Origin: Phycisphaerae bacterium
Lineage (GTDB): Bacteria > Planctomycetota > Phycisphaerae > UBA1845 > UTPLA1
Assembly: GCA_035275405.1 (NCBI GenBank)
Contig: DATEMU010000003.1
Location: forward strand, 1,054,001-1,118,000
Direction: 5' to 3'
DNA: 64,000 nt
Of the stretch, positions 41,442 to 48,674 are shown one piece after another. Position 1 is the stretch's first letter; the number at the start of each line of letters is the position of its first letter. Position numbers and translations under genes: made by a program. A model generated the notes under the pieces. The model was not told the origin of the DNA and did no database searches. It was given only the letters and a program-made list of their open reading frames with translations.

Positions 41442-41504
41442 AAGCCGCGTGAACTGGGCTGGACGTCGGGGTGCCGTTTCGGAGGCGGTTCATTCCGGCG
41501 GCGG
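41442..41504. repeat. Direct repeat, right copy
   Basis: AAGCCGCGTGAACTGGGCTG then GACGT matches the left copy (40428) at 22 of 25 positions; GGTTCATTCCGGCGGCGG matches at 16 of 18. Substitutions break the hairpin, so this is an older or decayed copy. Confidence 0.65.
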
Positions 41505-41547
41505 GGCTGGATATCATATTTCTGAACACGGAGCCAAAGGACGATTC

Positions 41548-42048
41548 ATGCCCACGAGCCAGCGTACATTGAGGGAACTGTCGGGAATGCGCTGGCTCGT
41601 CGAGGCCCGGAACAAAACCCAGAGCTTGATGGCCGATTTATACGAGGCGTTTCCGTGCGAGCATGTTAGTGTCGACGAGACGCTCCGAGACCGACTTCAT
41701 CTAATGCTCGGCGCAGCCTTTTCACTGTGGCGCGCAGTCTTTCTCATCAGCCCCGAAGACAGCGAACGATCGTTCGCCGACTTAGAAGGAGACGCCAGGG
41801 AGTTTCTGAAACGAGTGATCGATACTAACGCGATCACGTTCAATGACGAACTCAGGTGGCGCGCTTGGTCGGGCGGCTATTACCTAAACAACGCCAGACA
41901 GCGCGTCTTTGACCTCGGAAAAAAAAGGGGGTTTGAGGGGTCTGTCCCATCGAATGTGGTGTTGAGGAAGGCGTGGAACAAGATTTATGAAGAACTAGAC
42001 AAGATCATCAAGAAACACCAACAAATGGGTGAGAGTCAACGCTCATGA
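41548..42048 (+). CDS. Hypothetical protein at edge of lower-GC island
   Basis: 166 residues from ATG 41548 with AAAGGA just upstream. Mostly helical: LRELSGMRWLVEARNKTQSLMADLYEAF, LRDRLHLMLGAAFSLWRAVFL, SFADLEGDAREFLKRVIDTN, and a Lys-rich C-terminus. ITFNDELRWRAWSGGYYLNNARQRV is a distinctive stretch. No family recognised. Its composition is more A/T-rich than the housekeeping genes nearby. It is convergent with the kinase cluster. Confidence 0.65.
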   Translation: MPTSQRTLRELSGMRWLVEARNKTQSLMADLYEAFPCEHVSVDETLRDRLHLMLGAAFSLWRAVFLISPEDSERSFADLEGDAREFLKRVIDTNAITFNDELRWRAWSGGYYLNNARQRVFDLGKKRGFEGSVPSNVVLRKAWNKIYEELDKIIKKHQQMGESQRS

Positions 42049-42217
42049 AAACGTGCGGCCAAACGCGCGGTAGAGTAGAGCAAGTAGCGCGGCACCATAG
42101 CGGCGGGGTGTATCTTGTTGCTGGTCGCGGGGCAGGAGGAGCAGGTTCGAGAGGTTTGGCGGCGCTTGAGTAGCGCGGATGCAACCAGGAACTGCTGAGG
42201 TTGCGAGGATTTCGGTC

Positions 42218-42511
42218 TTAGGTGGAGAGTTTTTCGAGGGCGTTCGCTATCGCTTTTTGTCCAATTGTTTTGAACGCATCGTCGGGCATGTCTTTGTATC
42301 GTGAGTGAATCTGGCGGCTTTGAATCGACGGGTGATCCAATCCGGGCTGCCCTGCAAGAAACTTGTAATTTGCAATCTTCTGATTCATGCTGGCCCAGCC
42401 CATGCCGAGGCGGTCGGCTAACTCCTGCTTCGAAGTGCCCAGCCCCGCGTCCCCAAAGCGGAAGAGGTAGTAGCCGATGAGGTCGTCATCTTCTGACCAT
42501 TTGTGATTCAT
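42218..42511 (-). CDS. Small HTH-like protein linked to the kinase gene
   Basis: 97 residues. ATG 42511 overlaps the kinase stop (42508-42511), so translation is coupled. DLIGYYLFRFGDAGLGTSKQELADRLGMGWASMNQKIANYKFL looks like a helix-turn-helix in which ELADRLGMGWASMNQKI would be helices 2-3. No close family is recognised; similar N-termini occur in restriction-system-linked small proteins, but this is only an impression. Confidence 0.6.
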   Translation of the reverse strand: MNHKWSEDDDLIGYYLFRFGDAGLGTSKQELADRLGMGWASMNQKIANYKFLAGQPGLDHPSIQSRQIHSRYKDMPDDAFKTIGQKAIANALEKLST

Positions 42512-44148
42512 AACGGGTGGCTGTCCGAGTTTCCGGGGGAGCGGAGTTTAGCGAGTTGGGCGATTGCAAAGTTGTCGTTTGGAACCAAATCGAGGACTCT
42601 GACGAAACATTGGATCGCCTGATCAATATCTCCCTTGCTGAGGGCAATTAGACCGAAATTGTGCCACGCATTCGCATCTGATGGTCGAGCTTTGGTCCAA
42701 GAAGATAGCAATGTTTCGGCGGCTGCAAAGTTCTTTTCATTAAGAACCTCCCTGAGCAGCGCTTCCGCTTTTTCCAGGACAAGCGGCTTGGAGGGGCGAA
42801 GCCTGATTGCCTTAGCCGTGAGGGCCGCTGCTTCCGTAAACTGCTTTCCCAGGACGAGAGGTCCAACAAGATTCATCATGGCGGCCGTATTCTCAGGATC
42901 AAGGACTAGCGCAGTCGCGTAAGCTTTTCGGATTTCATCAATAGGCGCACTCATCCTGTTGAGCAATATCCCGAGGTTGTTCCAAGAATGAGTATTGTAT
43001 GGGTTTAACTCCAACGACTTTCGTGTCGCTATAATGGCATCTTGGTATTCACCGCGTTCAATGTGTAGTCGGCCTTTCTCGGTCCATCCGCAAGCGTTCT
43101 CCGGATATTGCGACACGTACTTACAGATTGCATCTAGTGCGCGGTCCTTATTCCCAAGAGCCACGTAGCTCTGTGCCTGAGCATAGAGTTCCTCGTCTTC
43201 CTTGGCGACTTGTGTTTGTTTCACGAGCTTTGTTTTCAACTTTTTCGCGACGGTGCTCAAGTTATCGAGCAACTCGTTGTAGCTTGCGTATCTTCGGTTT
43301 GGGTCCTTCGCCAGGCACCGTGCAACGATCGGCATTAGGGGCGACTCAAGTGGCACGGGCTTCTGTTGGCTGTGCGCCCGGAAAAACTCAGCGGTAACAT
43401 CAGCAGCTTGCTGATTGATTCGATACGGATACCGATTCCCGGAGGCCATCTGATAAAGGACAATGCCAAAACTATAGATATCGGCTCGATGATCAACATT
43501 TCGAGCATTCGTGAATTGCTCCGGCGCCATGAAGGGAGTGGTGCCCATCGCGACCCCCTTGATCGTTCTCGCAAGTGGGCTTGCCTCACGCTTTTTTGCG
43601 AAGATCCACCAGCGGCGCTTGTCACTAACGGCGTTGGTGTTAATCGATTTAGCCAGCCCAAAGTCGGTAACTTTGAGCGTCATGGCCTTGTCGATCATCA
43701 GATTGTCCGGCTTGATGTCGCGATGGGCAACGACCCCTTTCGATTTCGCATAATCCATGCCGTAACAGAACTGCGTCGCCCAAAGAAGGACAACCTCTGG
43801 GCACAATTGGGAAGCCGTCAGAAAGTGTGACAGGTTGTTTCGACCGTCCTCGTCGGGTTCTATGTATTCGGCGGCGATGAAAAGCTGTCCGCCGATTTCA
43901 CGAACCCAATACGCTTGGACAAGATTTGCATGTGCCCCAGCACTTATCCAAGCATTTGCCTCTGAAATAAATCGGCACCTTGTGCCTTCGTCGCCCGCAC
44001 CTTGGAAGGTCTTGAGCACGATGGGTCTTGGAATCTCCCAGTCTTGGACGAGATAGACGACGCCCATGCCGGACTGGTTTGCCCCACCGAATACATTCAG
44101 GACGGTGTACTCGCCACCTATCTCGTCACCGGTTTTATATTGCTGCAT
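42508..44148 (-). CDS. Serine/threonine protein kinase with TPR repeats
   Basis: 546 residues from ATG 44148 (MQQYKTGDEIGGEYTV); an in-frame start at 44223 overlaps the previous gene. The N-terminal kinase is complete: Gly-loop FGGANQSGMGVVYLV, Lys46 in IVLKTF, HRDIKPDN (142-149), DFG (162-164) and APE (208-210). From about 320 to the end there are tandem TPR-like helices, e.g. ALGNKDRALDAICKYVSQYP, AWHNFGLIALSKGDIDQAIQCFVRVLDLVP. No membrane span. It lies 26 bases after the pseudo-protease gene and is coupled to the small HTH-like gene. Confidence 0.92.
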   Translation of the reverse strand: MQQYKTGDEIGGEYTVLNVFGGANQSGMGVVYLVQDWEIPRPIVLKTFQGAGDEGTRCRFISEANAWISAGAHANLVQAYWVREIGGQLFIAAEYIEPDEDGRNNLSHFLTASQLCPEVVLLWATQFCYGMDYAKSKGVVAHRDIKPDNLMIDKAMTLKVTDFGLAKSINTNAVSDKRRWWIFAKKREASPLARTIKGVAMGTTPFMAPEQFTNARNVDHRADIYSFGIVLYQMASGNRYPYRINQQAADVTAEFFRAHSQQKPVPLESPLMPIVARCLAKDPNRRYASYNELLDNLSTVAKKLKTKLVKQTQVAKEDEELYAQAQSYVALGNKDRALDAICKYVSQYPENACGWTEKGRLHIERGEYQDAIIATRKSLELNPYNTHSWNNLGILLNRMSAPIDEIRKAYATALVLDPENTAAMMNLVGPLVLGKQFTEAAALTAKAIRLRPSKPLVLEKAEALLREVLNEKNFAAAETLLSSWTKARPSDANAWHNFGLIALSKGDIDQAIQCFVRVLDLVPNDNFAIAQLAKLRSPGNSDSHPL

Positions 44149-44174
44149 CAGCCTGCTCTTGCTGGTCCTTTTGT

Positions 44175-44891
44175 TCAGAAGCCAAGCTGACGAATTACAA
44201 AGGTCCCTATCGCTAACGCCCATCCTACAAGAAAAGCTGAGAGAACGACTACGCCAATAAGCGACACGCCTACCTGCTGCTTGACGTACTTTTCATAGTC
44301 AGTCCGTTTCCACTGGATCAAGGTAAAGAGCGCCTGGCCGCCAGCGAAAAGTGGGATGGGAATGCTGTTAATCGCTGCGAATTTTGCAGCGACCGTGCTT
44401 AGGCCAATGGCAACCGTACTATCTCCGATGAATTTCAAAGCTCGTCCTATTAACTCAGGCCCGACGACGAAGGGATGGCGTGCGCCTTCCCAGAATTGGC
44501 CGAAAGTCTCTACGGCTTCCGCTGCAACATTTCGGGGGGGTGACAATGTGCAGGCGAGAACGAGCAAAGAGATTGGGCCGCTCAAAATGATAAATGCCCT
44601 TGCGATCGGATGGACGTCATCAAAAGTGTCGGTTGGGATGCTCGACCGTGGCATAAGCTCATCGGCCGACGATGCTCGGGTTCGAAACTTAGCGAAACTA
44701 CCGGTCGGGATCCAACCAACAGACACCTTTACCTGATGGACGACAACCGTTACCAATCGGCGTCCATAGAAGAGCTGGATTTCTTCGAGACGGACGCCGC
44801 ATATGATCGCGAAAAGGGCTTGCGATCCGGTGAAACACGCGGTACAGAGCGCTGCGTACGCGCAGAACTGCAGGAAGGCAATCACGTCCAT
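44175..44891 (-). CDS. Site-2 protease (M50/RseP)-like membrane protein lacking zinc ligands
   Basis: 238 residues, four or so membrane spans. It aligns with the M50 intramembrane protease layout: CGVRLEEIQLFYGRRL (30-45) follows the first helix as in RseP CGVR..., GWIPTGSFAKF (59-69), RAFIILSGPISLLVLA (98-113) and NSIPIPLFAGGQALF (175-189). The zinc-binding HExxH is replaced by FTGSQ (20-24), and the third-ligand Asp of 'NxxPxxxxDGG' by Ala183. It should therefore be inactive as a protease, with a sensing, scaffold or chaperone role. It is directly upstream of the kinase gene. Confidence 0.75.
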   Translation of the reverse strand: MDVIAFLQFCAYAALCTACFTGSQALFAIICGVRLEEIQLFYGRRLVTVVVHQVKVSVGWIPTGSFAKFRTRASSADELMPRSSIPTDTFDDVHPIARAFIILSGPISLLVLACTLSPPRNVAAEAVETFGQFWEGARHPFVVGPELIGRALKFIGDSTVAIGLSTVAAKFAAINSIPIPLFAGGQALFTLIQWKRTDYEKYVKQQVGVSLIGVVVLSAFLVGWALAIGTFVIRQLGF

Positions 44892-45238
44892 TCGTAACCG
44901 TTCAGAATCAGAATTCGCTGAATAATAATGCCTTGGCGCTCAGCAAAAAAAATTGAGTGATGCGCATTAGGCCTTTGTCGTGACTCCGTTGTACACCACG
45001 GAAATATCATCATCCCGAGCACAGGGCCTGTCGAGGGACGGAGGACCGCTCGATGAAGTCGCCGTCAGGCTGGGACGAGTTCGCGGGGTTGCGCTTGGAC
45101 GATCGGCGCGCGGCGGATGGGCGGCGTGGGCGATTCTTCCGGCAAATGCTGGATCGCCCAGTTCAACTGCTTGCCGGTCGCCGGGGTGATCATGGATGGG
45201 GGCGGGGCGGGGGGAGGTTTCGCCGCGCACGGCCACGG
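44892..45238. other. Gap with a pseudogene remnant
   Basis: About 350 bases hold the upstream region of the pseudo-protease gene, an eight-A run near 44946, and the remnant at 45065-45193. No intact gene is seen. Confidence 0.5.
45065..45193 (-). pseudogene. Remnant of a paralogue of the radical SAM gene
   Basis: On the minus strand the 42 codons ending at 45065 read MITPATGKQLNWAIQHLPEE.., closely matching the last 42 residues of the radical SAM protein at 46061 (MIAPATGEQLNWAIQHLPDE..), including the terminal RELVPA and stop. Upstream of Met the similarity stops. It is what is left of a second, diverged copy whose body is lost. Confidence 0.8.
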
Positions 45239-45583
45239 TTATGGTACGGCGATACCGAATGACCGCATCAGGGCTTTTTCGATTTCCTGAAGCAGGGCGG
45301 GGCTTATTTTTCCGGCAAAACCGCCCCGGCGCAGGCGGGATCGCATGATGTAGCTGACGTTCTCACATCGGGCCATCGACGGCTGTGATATCCCGCCTTG
45401 TCCCTTGGGCAGCGGGACATGCGTCGGGGCCGGGCGGAGGTTGGTGGTCAAAGGAACAGCCAACACGCTGTTGCTGAATTGATTGCGCGCATCCAGCGAT
45501 ACGATCAGCGCCGGCCGCGACTTGGCCTCGTCGGGAAATTCAACCAGCCACACTTCGCCGCGCTCCGGGAATTGACGTTCCAC
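45239..45583 (-). CDS. MazF/PemK-type mRNA interferase toxin
   Basis: 114 residues from GTG 45583. The MazF fold is clear: RGEVWLVEFPDEAKSRPALIVS, SVLAVPLTTNLR, THVPLPKGQGGISQPSMARCENVSYI. It should cleave RNA at short motifs and be blocked by the product of the gene before it, whose stop is nine bases upstream. The arrangement with the antitoxin first is typical for this type II system. Confidence 0.88.
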   Translation of the reverse strand: MERQFPERGEVWLVEFPDEAKSRPALIVSLDARNQFSNSVLAVPLTTNLRPAPTHVPLPKGQGGISQPSMARCENVSYIMRSRLRRGGFAGKISPALLQEIEKALMRSFGIAVP

Positions 45584-45592
45584 GGCCAGGGC

Positions 45593-45829
45593 CTATTTTC
45601 CTTCCCATGCCTCGCGGCTGTCTCGGGCCACGGCCTCGCCCCACGAATCGTCGTCGGCGTCGGGTGGCGCCTGCTTCTCGTAATACTCGCGCGTCGCGAC
45701 CTCGAGTTCGCTCGCCGAGTTGCCGTTGGACGATTCGAGCAGCACAACGACCTGCGTCTGCGGCGACGCCTCCAGCGGCTCGTCGGGGACGACGACCGAT
45801 CCGTCGAAATGTGCCCTAATTCCGATCAT
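45593..45829 (-). CDS. Antitoxin partner of MazF
   Basis: 78 residues, N-terminal IRAHFDGSVVVPDEPLE resembling the small beta-strand domain of antitoxins of the DUF2281/AF2212-like kind, then an acidic disordered C-terminus (REYYEKQAPPDADDDSWGEAV), as expected for a toxin-binding tail. It precedes the toxin by nine bases and would be its antitoxin; a DNA-binding role is not clear. Confidence 0.72.
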   Translation of the reverse strand: MIGIRAHFDGSVVVPDEPLEASPQTQVVVLLESSNGNSASELEVATREYYEKQAPPDADDDSWGEAVARDSREAWEGK

Positions 45830-46060: not shown

Positions 46061-47974
46061 TTACGCGGGGACGAGTTCGCGTGATTTTGCATGAACGACA
46101 GGCGCGAGGCGGATCGGGGGTGTCAACGTCTCATCGGGCAAATGCTGGATCGCCCAGTTCAACTGCTCCCCCGTCGCCGGGGCGATCATGGGGATGCGGG
46201 CGGGTTGGAGACCGTCCCACATTTCGATGGGGCCGCGCTTCAGTTTGCGGGACCAGGCGAGCATGGGGGGGAAGGTCATGGCGATGCCGATCTGACCGAC
46301 GATCTGGAAGAGCAGGCGGCGCGCGGAGAGCTTGTCGTTTCGCCAGTTGGCGAGGATGCGCAGCGTGTTGATGGGGTTGTAGAAGGTCGCGTAGCCGCGG
46401 AGGACGTTCATCTGCCGCTCCCACGGGCGCGGGTGCTTGCTGGCGGCGACGTGGTTGCCGTCCTGATAGGCCTGGGGGATGGGCTGGCCGCCGACGCTCT
46501 TGAAGATGATCTTCGACTTGGCGGCGGGCTCGAAGTCGAGCGTGCCGACGGCGGGGCCGAGATACGTGCATTGATAGGAGACGGCGCCCTTGTCGAACAT
46601 GTAGCGGGCCTGGTTGACGAGACCGCGGAGACTGTCCTTGGGCGTGCGGAGCGGCTGGTCGTCGTTGTGGATCATCATGGCCATCGGCTCGATGCCGAGC
46701 TTGCGGAGGGCCTCGTAGACGATCGTCGTCTTGCCGGGGGTCTGGCCCTTGTTGACCAGTTCGGCGGTGATGTCCTCGATGCCGAACCAGATCGCGCGCA
46801 TGCCGGCCTTGCGACAGAGGGGGAGGATGTCCAGGTTCTTGTGGACGTCGAACTCGGTCGCCTCGGTGAAGAAGCTGATCACGTCGCCCATGGGCTTGCC
46901 GCGGATCTTCGTATTGGCCATCTCGGTCATCAGGTCGATGACGGTCTGGCGGGTGTTGAAGAAGTTGTCGTCGGTGCCGAAAAACTGCTTGATGCCGAAG
47001 TTTTCGTAAATGTGCTTGATCTCGGCGGCGAGGCGCTTGGGACTCTTGAAGCGCCAGGTGCGCTGATTGACCGCGGGGATGGGGCAGTAGGTGCAGGCGA
47101 ACTTGCAGCCCTGGGTGCTGATGAGCGAGGAGACGATGGAGAGCTTGCCGACCTTGTGGGCGGGGTAGGGCTTTTCGGCGAGGGTCTTGCGGCGGTGGGG
47201 CGGCTCGATGAGGCGGTAGCCGGCGTCGGGCATGGGCATTTCGTCCAAGTCGCGGAGGAGGCGCTGGACGCCGGTGTTAATCGCGTAGTAGCTGACTTTG
47301 GAGAGCGGCCGCCCTCGGCTCGATTCTTCTTCGTCCAGCACTTCGCGCGGCAAGTACACGAGGCCGGGGATGTCGTTGAGTTGCCCATCGTCGCGGGTGC
47401 GCTGGTAGGCGCGGAGCATCGACTCGCCCGCGGCGCGGTTGTCGAGCAGGCGTTCGAGCAATTCGAGGAAGACGTAGCCCTCGCCGGTCGAGACGCAGTC
47501 GGCGTGCATGCCGGGTTCGGGGCCGAGGTCGAAGTAGTCGACGGGTTCGTAGATGGCCTTGGGGCCGCCGGCGAGGATGAGCGGGCGATTCGCGCCCATG
47601 CGGAGGGCGTCGCGGACCATGTCGTAGGCGGGCTCGGCGTGGACCTGCATGGCGGAGACCATGAGGATGTCGAGGGGGCGACCGTTTATGAGCGCGCGGC
47701 TGGGCGTGAAGTTGGGGGTCCACTGCTGGAGGACGACGCGGACGTGGCGGAAGCCGGCGGCGTCGAGGCAGTCGGCGAGGGTGCGCACGGAGCAGGGGGC
47801 CATCCGCTTGTCGGCGTACCAGTAGGGGAGCATCCGCGTGCGGAAGTCGAAGGCGTAGGGGATGCAGATTCGCAGGTCGTGCGCTTCCGTGCGCTTTCGC
47901 AGTCGGCCGAGGATGGCGGTGAATTCGCCGTCGGGGAGGTAGACGTCATTCGGTTTGCGGCGAGGTAGTTCCAC
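46061..47974 (-). CDS. Radical SAM enzyme with B12-binding-like N-terminus
   Basis: 637 residues from GTG 47974 (VELPRRKPNDVYLP), with GGAGA upstream; a GTG at 48025 is an alternative. The N-terminal part (about 30-230) has a Rossmann-like layout typical of B12-binding radical SAM proteins: PSRALINGRPLDILMVSAMQVH, LILAGGPKAIYEPVDYFDLG, CVSTGEGYVFLELL. The radical SAM core has the [4Fe-4S] motif CKFACTYC at about 300-307 and GTDDNFFN, MRAIWFGIEDIT. Substrate unknown. A decayed partial copy exists at 45065. Confidence 0.85.
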   Translation of the reverse strand: MELPRRKPNDVYLPDGEFTAILGRLRKRTEAHDLRICIPYAFDFRTRMLPYWYADKRMAPCSVRTLADCLDAAGFRHVRVVLQQWTPNFTPSRALINGRPLDILMVSAMQVHAEPAYDMVRDALRMGANRPLILAGGPKAIYEPVDYFDLGPEPGMHADCVSTGEGYVFLELLERLLDNRAAGESMLRAYQRTRDDGQLNDIPGLVYLPREVLDEEESSRGRPLSKVSYYAINTGVQRLLRDLDEMPMPDAGYRLIEPPHRRKTLAEKPYPAHKVGKLSIVSSLISTQGCKFACTYCPIPAVNQRTWRFKSPKRLAAEIKHIYENFGIKQFFGTDDNFFNTRQTVIDLMTEMANTKIRGKPMGDVISFFTEATEFDVHKNLDILPLCRKAGMRAIWFGIEDITAELVNKGQTPGKTTIVYEALRKLGIEPMAMMIHNDDQPLRTPKDSLRGLVNQARYMFDKGAVSYQCTYLGPAVGTLDFEPAAKSKIIFKSVGGQPIPQAYQDGNHVAASKHPRPWERQMNVLRGYATFYNPINTLRILANWRNDKLSARRLLFQIVGQIGIAMTFPPMLAWSRKLKRGPIEMWDGLQPARIPMIAPATGEQLNWAIQHLPDETLTPPIRLAPVVHAKSRELVPA

Positions 47975-48218: not shown

Positions 48219-48674
48219 CTACCAGCCGCCCTGATCGCGGCCGCCGCCGCCGCGGTCACCGCGGTCACCGCCACGACCACCACCGCCGCCGCCGTAACCA
48301 CCGCGCCCGCCGCCGCCGCCACCACCGTAGCCGCCGCGACCTCCACCACCGCCGCCACCGCCGTAGCCACCGCGACCACCACCACCGCCGCCGTAGCCAC
48401 CACGACCACCGCCACCGCCGGAGCGCGGGGGCTTGGGCTGGGCTTCGTTGACCTTGAGGCTGCGGCCGTCCAGATCGGCGCCGTTCATGGCGGTGATGGC
48501 CGCCTGGGCCTCGGCGTCATTGTCCATCTCGACGAAGGCGAAGCCGCGCGATTCGCCGCTGTCGCGATCGCGGACGAGCGAGACCTTGGAAACCGAGCCG
48601 TGCGCGGCGAAGGCCTCGCGAAGTGCGTCTTCGGTGGTCGAGAACGAGAGATTGCCAACATAGATATTCTTCAA
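48219..48674 (-). CDS. RNA-binding protein with RRM and RGG/Gly-rich tail
   Basis: 151 residues. An RRM occupies about 1-80: RNP2 IYVGNLSF at 4-11 and RNP1 RGFAFVEM at 43-50. The rest (about 83-151) is a Gly/Arg/Tyr-rich tail made of GGRGGYGG-type repeats, encoded by tandem DNA repeats. Cold-shock-induced small RRM proteins of cyanobacteria and planctomycetes have this layout; it likely binds RNA and may phase-separate. Confidence 0.93.
   Translation of the reverse strand: MKNIYVGNLSFSTTEDALREAFAAHGSVSKVSLVRDRDSGESRGFAFVEMDNDAEAQAAITAMNGADLDGRSLKVNEAQPKPPRSGGGGGRGGYGGGGGGRGGYGGGGGGGGRGGYGGGGGGGRGGYGGGGGGRGGDRGDRGGGGRDQGGW
48240..48420. repeat. Tandem repeat encoding the Gly-rich tail
   Basis: Repeats with GCCGCC/CCACCACC and TAGCC units encode the RGG/GYGG tail of the RRM protein. 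Codon-length repeats of this type often vary in number between strains. Confidence 0.75.

Follow-up and report, generated by a model that had tools for sequence, protein, structure and literature searches.

A compact, probably foreign trio of genes for a pseudo-site-2 protease, a soluble kinase with TPR repeats and a probable helix-turn-helix protein in a Phycisphaerae bacterium

The 64,000-nucleotide stretch of Phycisphaerae DNA analysed here (the window) carries three uninterrupted open reading frames on the minus strand between positions 42218 and 44891. The first in reading order (44175..44891) encodes a short pseudo-site-2 protease of the M50 fold with 238 amino acids, recognised by a PF02163 match, a structure model and the loss of its metal ligands. 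It is followed by the gene for a soluble Hanks-type Ser/Thr kinase of 546 amino acids with a C-terminal TPR array (42508..44148), assigned by Pfam, sequence motifs and a tree. The last gene (42218..42511) encodes a probable helix-turn-helix (HTH) protein of 97 amino acids, assigned from two homologues, a Sigma70_r4_2 match in one of them and an all-helical model. The M50-like gene and the kinase gene are 26 bp apart, and the ATG of the 97-residue gene overlaps the TGA of the kinase gene by 4 bp (ATGA). No terminator-like site was found between the genes on the minus strand, and promoter-like matches around the trio stay at chance level. All three reading frames, free of stops and frameshifts, lie where the original prediction had placed a tightly linked cluster on one strand. 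The trio is a real operon-like unit, and it is probably foreign.

The composition of the region is distinct. The 1-kb intervals between 42 and 45 kb have a GC content of 52.2-52.9% and are the three lowest of all 64; the next one has a GC fraction of 0.549 and most are near 0.62. The contrast in GC that was originally described is therefore present, but the hand-counted value of 47-48% underestimates the GC content of the full region. GC at third codon positions (GC3) is 0.57-0.65 in the trio and 0.78-0.90 in the flanking methyltransferase and radical SAM genes. A convergent open reading frame on the plus strand (41449..42048, 199 amino acids from an upstream GTG) has a similarly low GC of 0.543 and a GC3 of 0.615. 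It may be part of the same acquired stretch, for which we propose the extent 41449..45000 from GC and GC3; it has no match in Pfam, PADLOC, NCBIfam or PHROG. The low GC and GC3 across all three genes, together with a kinase tree that sets the kinase apart from its closest paralogues in the same genome, fit the entry of the trio as one unit. Horizontal acquisition, as first proposed, is thus likely on sequence grounds. In an empty-site comparison the neighbouring radical SAM gene is kept in relatives, and the other genes of the window neighbourhood are not near it there.

The flank upstream of the trio holds further features. A MazF/PemK-like toxin gene (45239-45829, PF02452, E 8.8e-20) lies just upstream of the trio and is preceded by a 78-residue open reading frame in the antitoxin position. 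Across this gene, positions 45069-45206 repeat the 3' end of the radical SAM gene (46065-46204) with 80.7% identity, which looks as if an insertion or a partial duplication had occurred at the end of that gene. Farther away, positions 48219-48674 encode an RRM RNA-binding protein whose tail is long and rich in glycine.

The 238-residue protein matches PF02163 with an E-value of 4.9e-11, above the Pfam cut-off. Its AlphaFold (AF2) model has a pLDDT of 75 and superimposes on RseP with Z 13.7 (3.5 A over 210 residues), on RASP with Z 14.3, on SpoIVFB with Z 8.4 and on the S2P of M. jannaschii with Z 7.0. RseP and RASP structures span Z 12.5-14.3, and the first unrelated structure follows at Z 5.6. 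The catalytic residues are gone. A search for HExxH found the motif nowhere in the protein, and there is no histidine in the first 40 residues. H22, E23 and H26 of RseP correspond to F20, T21 and Q24, positions that were placed by extending the gap-free RseP alignment a few residues upstream. The NxxPxPxxDGG region reads NSIPIPLFAGG, so the aspartate is replaced by alanine; a direct alignment to E. coli RseP pairs D402 with A183. Since the S2P fold is matched while the three metal ligands and the catalytic glutamate are all replaced, the protein is a pseudo-protease as judged from sequence and model, an S2P core that would be unable to coordinate the catalytic zinc, and the dead site-2 protease of the original prediction is borne out. 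It has the membrane core fold in common with RseP and SpoIVFB, but none of their metal ligands or catalytic glutamate, and 238 residues leave no room for PDZ domains. The plant chloroplast protein EGY3 likewise belongs to the S2P family of membrane proteins and is regarded as a pseudoprotease. EGY3 is described as plant-only and no kinase partner is described there (PMC9355673), whereas the window protein is a bacterial minimal core. The iRhom rhomboid pseudoproteases also are inactive intramembrane proteases that keep their fold to regulate a partner (PMC3149277); they have a different protease fold, are eukaryotic and have known clients.

The window protein does not stand alone in the phylum. 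Four short relatives without HExxH were found, at L025 (7795-8499, minus strand), L026 (7399-8115, minus strand), L027 (7954-8592, plus strand) and L081 (7867-8544, plus strand). They are 212-238 residues long and 19-27% identical to the window protein. In profile searches for this family the E-values of those members from which the profile was made are high by construction. Each of the four matches PF02163 alone, with E 4e-9 to 6e-6, in the case of L081 just under the curated cut-off. The aspartate position of the DGG motif is alanine in two relatives, proline in one and not aspartate in L081, while the PxP loop is largely kept among the four. The loss of the same catalytic residues in four more proteins that largely keep this loop suggests selection for a non-catalytic role. 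The short pseudo-S2Ps look like a sparse, old, non-catalytic family, whose genes are spread over diverse members of the phylum, with an unrelated gene context around each. A comparison of the M50 protein with plasmid records gave no relative. Four matches from a scan of genome contigs with the same protein were discarded, as they were SpoVA-like sporulation-type proteins that share only a short chance match with it.

The kinase combines a Pkinase domain (E 1.5e-29, about residues 1-300) with TPRs at about residues 320-535. The motifs VLK (44-46), HRD (142), DFG (162) and APE (208) are all present. The glycine-rich loop reads FGGANQSGMGVVY in place of GxGxxG; the glycines are there, with their spacing changed by an insertion. 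Hydropathy gave no transmembrane segment. The kinase is thus intact and cytosolic, in agreement with the original prediction. Kinase-TPR proteins of Planctomycetota and myxobacteria have the same order of a Pkinase domain and a C-terminal TPR array, but they are mostly membrane-spanning with periplasmic TPRs (PMC11032199), whereas the window kinase has no membrane segment and groups apart from the closest kinases of its own genome. That genome encodes dozens of kinases, and even the closest of these paralogues shares only 34% identity with it across the kinase domain. In a maximum-likelihood tree the kinase falls into a group with 99/99 support, to the exclusion of the seven closest kinases of its genome. 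The group also contains a tandem array of kinase-TPR genes from G382, which belongs to another family of the phylum, a kinase-TPR protein from a Chloroflexota plasmid and a kinase from a Streptomyces plasmid; the end branch of the window kinase is long and its exact sister is unsure.

Relatives of the kinase are found with different partners or with no partner. The G382 array fills one short contig (L048, 1-7398) with at least four kinase-TPR genes in tandem. On a Chlorohelix plasmid (L043, 6724-10187) a kinase-TPR gene overlaps a TIR-domain gene by ATGA, and the pair adjoins Swt1-HEPN and DUF1156 genes. The TIR domain is annotated; the N-terminal parts of this gene product appear FHA/GAF-like in our own reading of the sequence. 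The two genes are a possible kinase-TIR defence pair, and their overlap means that two-gene units with a different partner exist within this kinase group.

The 97-residue protein has no direct match in Pfam and only a weak one in PHROG (E 1e-3). Two homologues were found in the order, at L085 (7573-7875) and L086 (7575-7877), with 42% and 28% identity and E-values of 4e-13 and 2.5e-10. The pattern common to the homologues is W....DL...YL.R.G...LG.........LG...........N.K...G..GL, and one of them matches Sigma70_r4_2, the HTH of sigma-70 region 4, with E 3.3e-6. The model of the window protein is confident (pLDDT 89.9) and all-helical. VIA-align comparison to the PDB gave weak rows that include LysR, LuxR-type and Myb DNA-binding domains with Z up to 3.3; Foldseek found no match in the PDB under E 1, and structural matches of this strength do not assign the protein to a fold family. 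Tblastn against phage and plasmid records returned nothing below E 1, and the L086 homologue had no match in plasmids. The HTH-like character that was originally assigned to this protein is consistent with the homologue and the helical model, but not matched by Pfam directly. DNA binding is probable.

Searches with proteins and profiles of the trio revealed no second trio and no pair in 392 genomes of the phylum or 114 genomes of the order, and a profile of the HTH protein found no second trio in 67 genomes of the class. When all three proteins were tested against 12-16 kb around the four pseudo-S2P and two HTH relatives, and against 7-18 kb around the kinase relatives, no second trio member was seen. 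The viral and phage records searched contain no relative of any of the three proteins at the sensitivity used; viral contigs were compared with two alignments as well as with each protein. These searches covered one phylum in depth and, beyond it, mainly records of plasmids, phages and viruses, plus a single pattern scan of genome contigs. Among the genomes sampled the trio is carried solely by the window's own genome. Co-occurrence elsewhere, the check that the original prediction had named, thus gave a negative answer in each of the genomes sampled; a conserved signalling system is no more than possible, as no second trio turned up among roughly 500 related genomes.

Our preferred reading, held tentatively, is that of a horizontally acquired three-gene operon in which the pseudo-S2P anchors or gates the soluble TPR kinase. 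A kinase without a transmembrane segment would need a separate partner for input from the membrane, and the tight linkage of such a kinase with a polytopic protein that cannot cut suggests a receptor or anchor role for the latter. The pseudo-S2P would keep the membrane core and the beta hairpin of S2Ps without being able to cleave, and might serve the kinase as an anchor or receptor in the membrane, the role that has been proposed for GlnX with respect to PknG (PMC9769921, PMC8546545). The C-terminal TPR array would be the likely docking surface. The HTH protein could regulate the operon with which it is co-expressed, or serve as a substrate of the kinase. We infer the contact, the signal, the phosphorylation target and the regulation within the trio, and membrane sensing and phosphorylation of a DNA-binding protein are likewise putative as its functional links. 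Against an anchor or receptor stand the absence of a second trio or pair in the genomes searched, the unrelated contexts in which the relatives of each gene are found, and the different partners, or lack of partners, of the kinase relatives. The more specific proposal, that the pseudo-S2P is the membrane receptor of a soluble TPR kinase controlling a DNA-binding protein, with the fold of an intramembrane protease put to new use as in a bacterial counterpart of EGY3 and the iRhoms, we regard as rather unlikely.

The closest comparison is the PknG-GlnX-GlnH cascade of Actinobacteria, in which a soluble Ser/Thr kinase with C-terminal TPRs needs a separate multi-span membrane protein (PMC8546545, PMC9769921). 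Such a kinase is present in the trio. However, GlnX is an all-helical receptor with four transmembrane segments and two periplasmic domains and does not have the S2P fold (PMC8546545, PMC9769921), while the membrane partner in the window does, and no GlnH-like gene is among the three. Unlike PknG, the kinase has no N-terminal extension; its Pkinase match starts no later than residue 30, and the alignment with the Chlorohelix relative begins at residue 3. The cascade in turn has no HTH gene. The likeness might hold as an analogy of function, one that does not reach the extension, the GlnX fold or GlnH. The function of TPRs in soluble TPR kinases is mostly unknown (PMC11032199). If true, the anchor or gating reading would describe a dead intramembrane protease of bacteria turned signal receptor, and a simple system for linking soluble TPR kinases to the membrane.

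It is nearly as likely that a kinase-TPR gene landed in a foreign cassette together with orphan genes for a pseudo-S2P and an HTH protein, and that the three are co-transcribed while each acts by itself, because each gene is solitary elsewhere. Every relative found (four pseudo-S2Ps, two HTH proteins and the kinases at several loci) lives without the other two, and the genome samples gave no co-occurrence. The very tight spacing with its translational overlap and the uniform composition over the three genes speak against this reading.

A module against phages or plasmids, with the kinase-TPR protein as sensor or effector, the pseudo-S2P as membrane effector and the HTH protein as regulator, seems to us quite unlikely. 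A foreign low-GC cassette beside a MazF-like gene would suit such a module, as would the defence-like surroundings of the Chlorohelix relative, whose partner gene combines the annotated TIR domain with FHA- and GAF-like parts (our reading) beside Swt1-HEPN and DUF1156. PADLOC models for PD-T4-6 match the kinase with E 5.6e-47, but the match covers the kinase domain only and the models are unspecific and match many kinases. They also capture a kinase of S. thermophilus labelled 'PD-T4-6', which is present in all strains studied and has a very mild phenotype only; its kinase-associated binding modules come after a 4eqm-like kinase domain (PMC11514479). We have set a defence reading from these matches aside for this reason. 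The pseudo-S2P and the 97-residue protein have no PADLOC match, and viral and phage records hold no counterpart of any trio protein at the sensitivity used. A literature search found no described defence unit of kinase-TPR, TIR and FHA parts.

A decaying remnant, in which the pseudo-S2P is a protease losing its function and the cassette is on its way out, would account for the missing catalytic residues and for sampled relatives that have no trio, but it is highly improbable, given that all reading frames are intact and that the same residues are lost in four other short pseudo-S2Ps, which points to an old and maintained non-catalytic family. This sparse bacterial family may be a more interesting result than the trio itself. 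A catalogue of it would be worthwhile, since the one S2P pseudoprotease described in the papers that we found, EGY3, is reported from plants only (PMC9355673).
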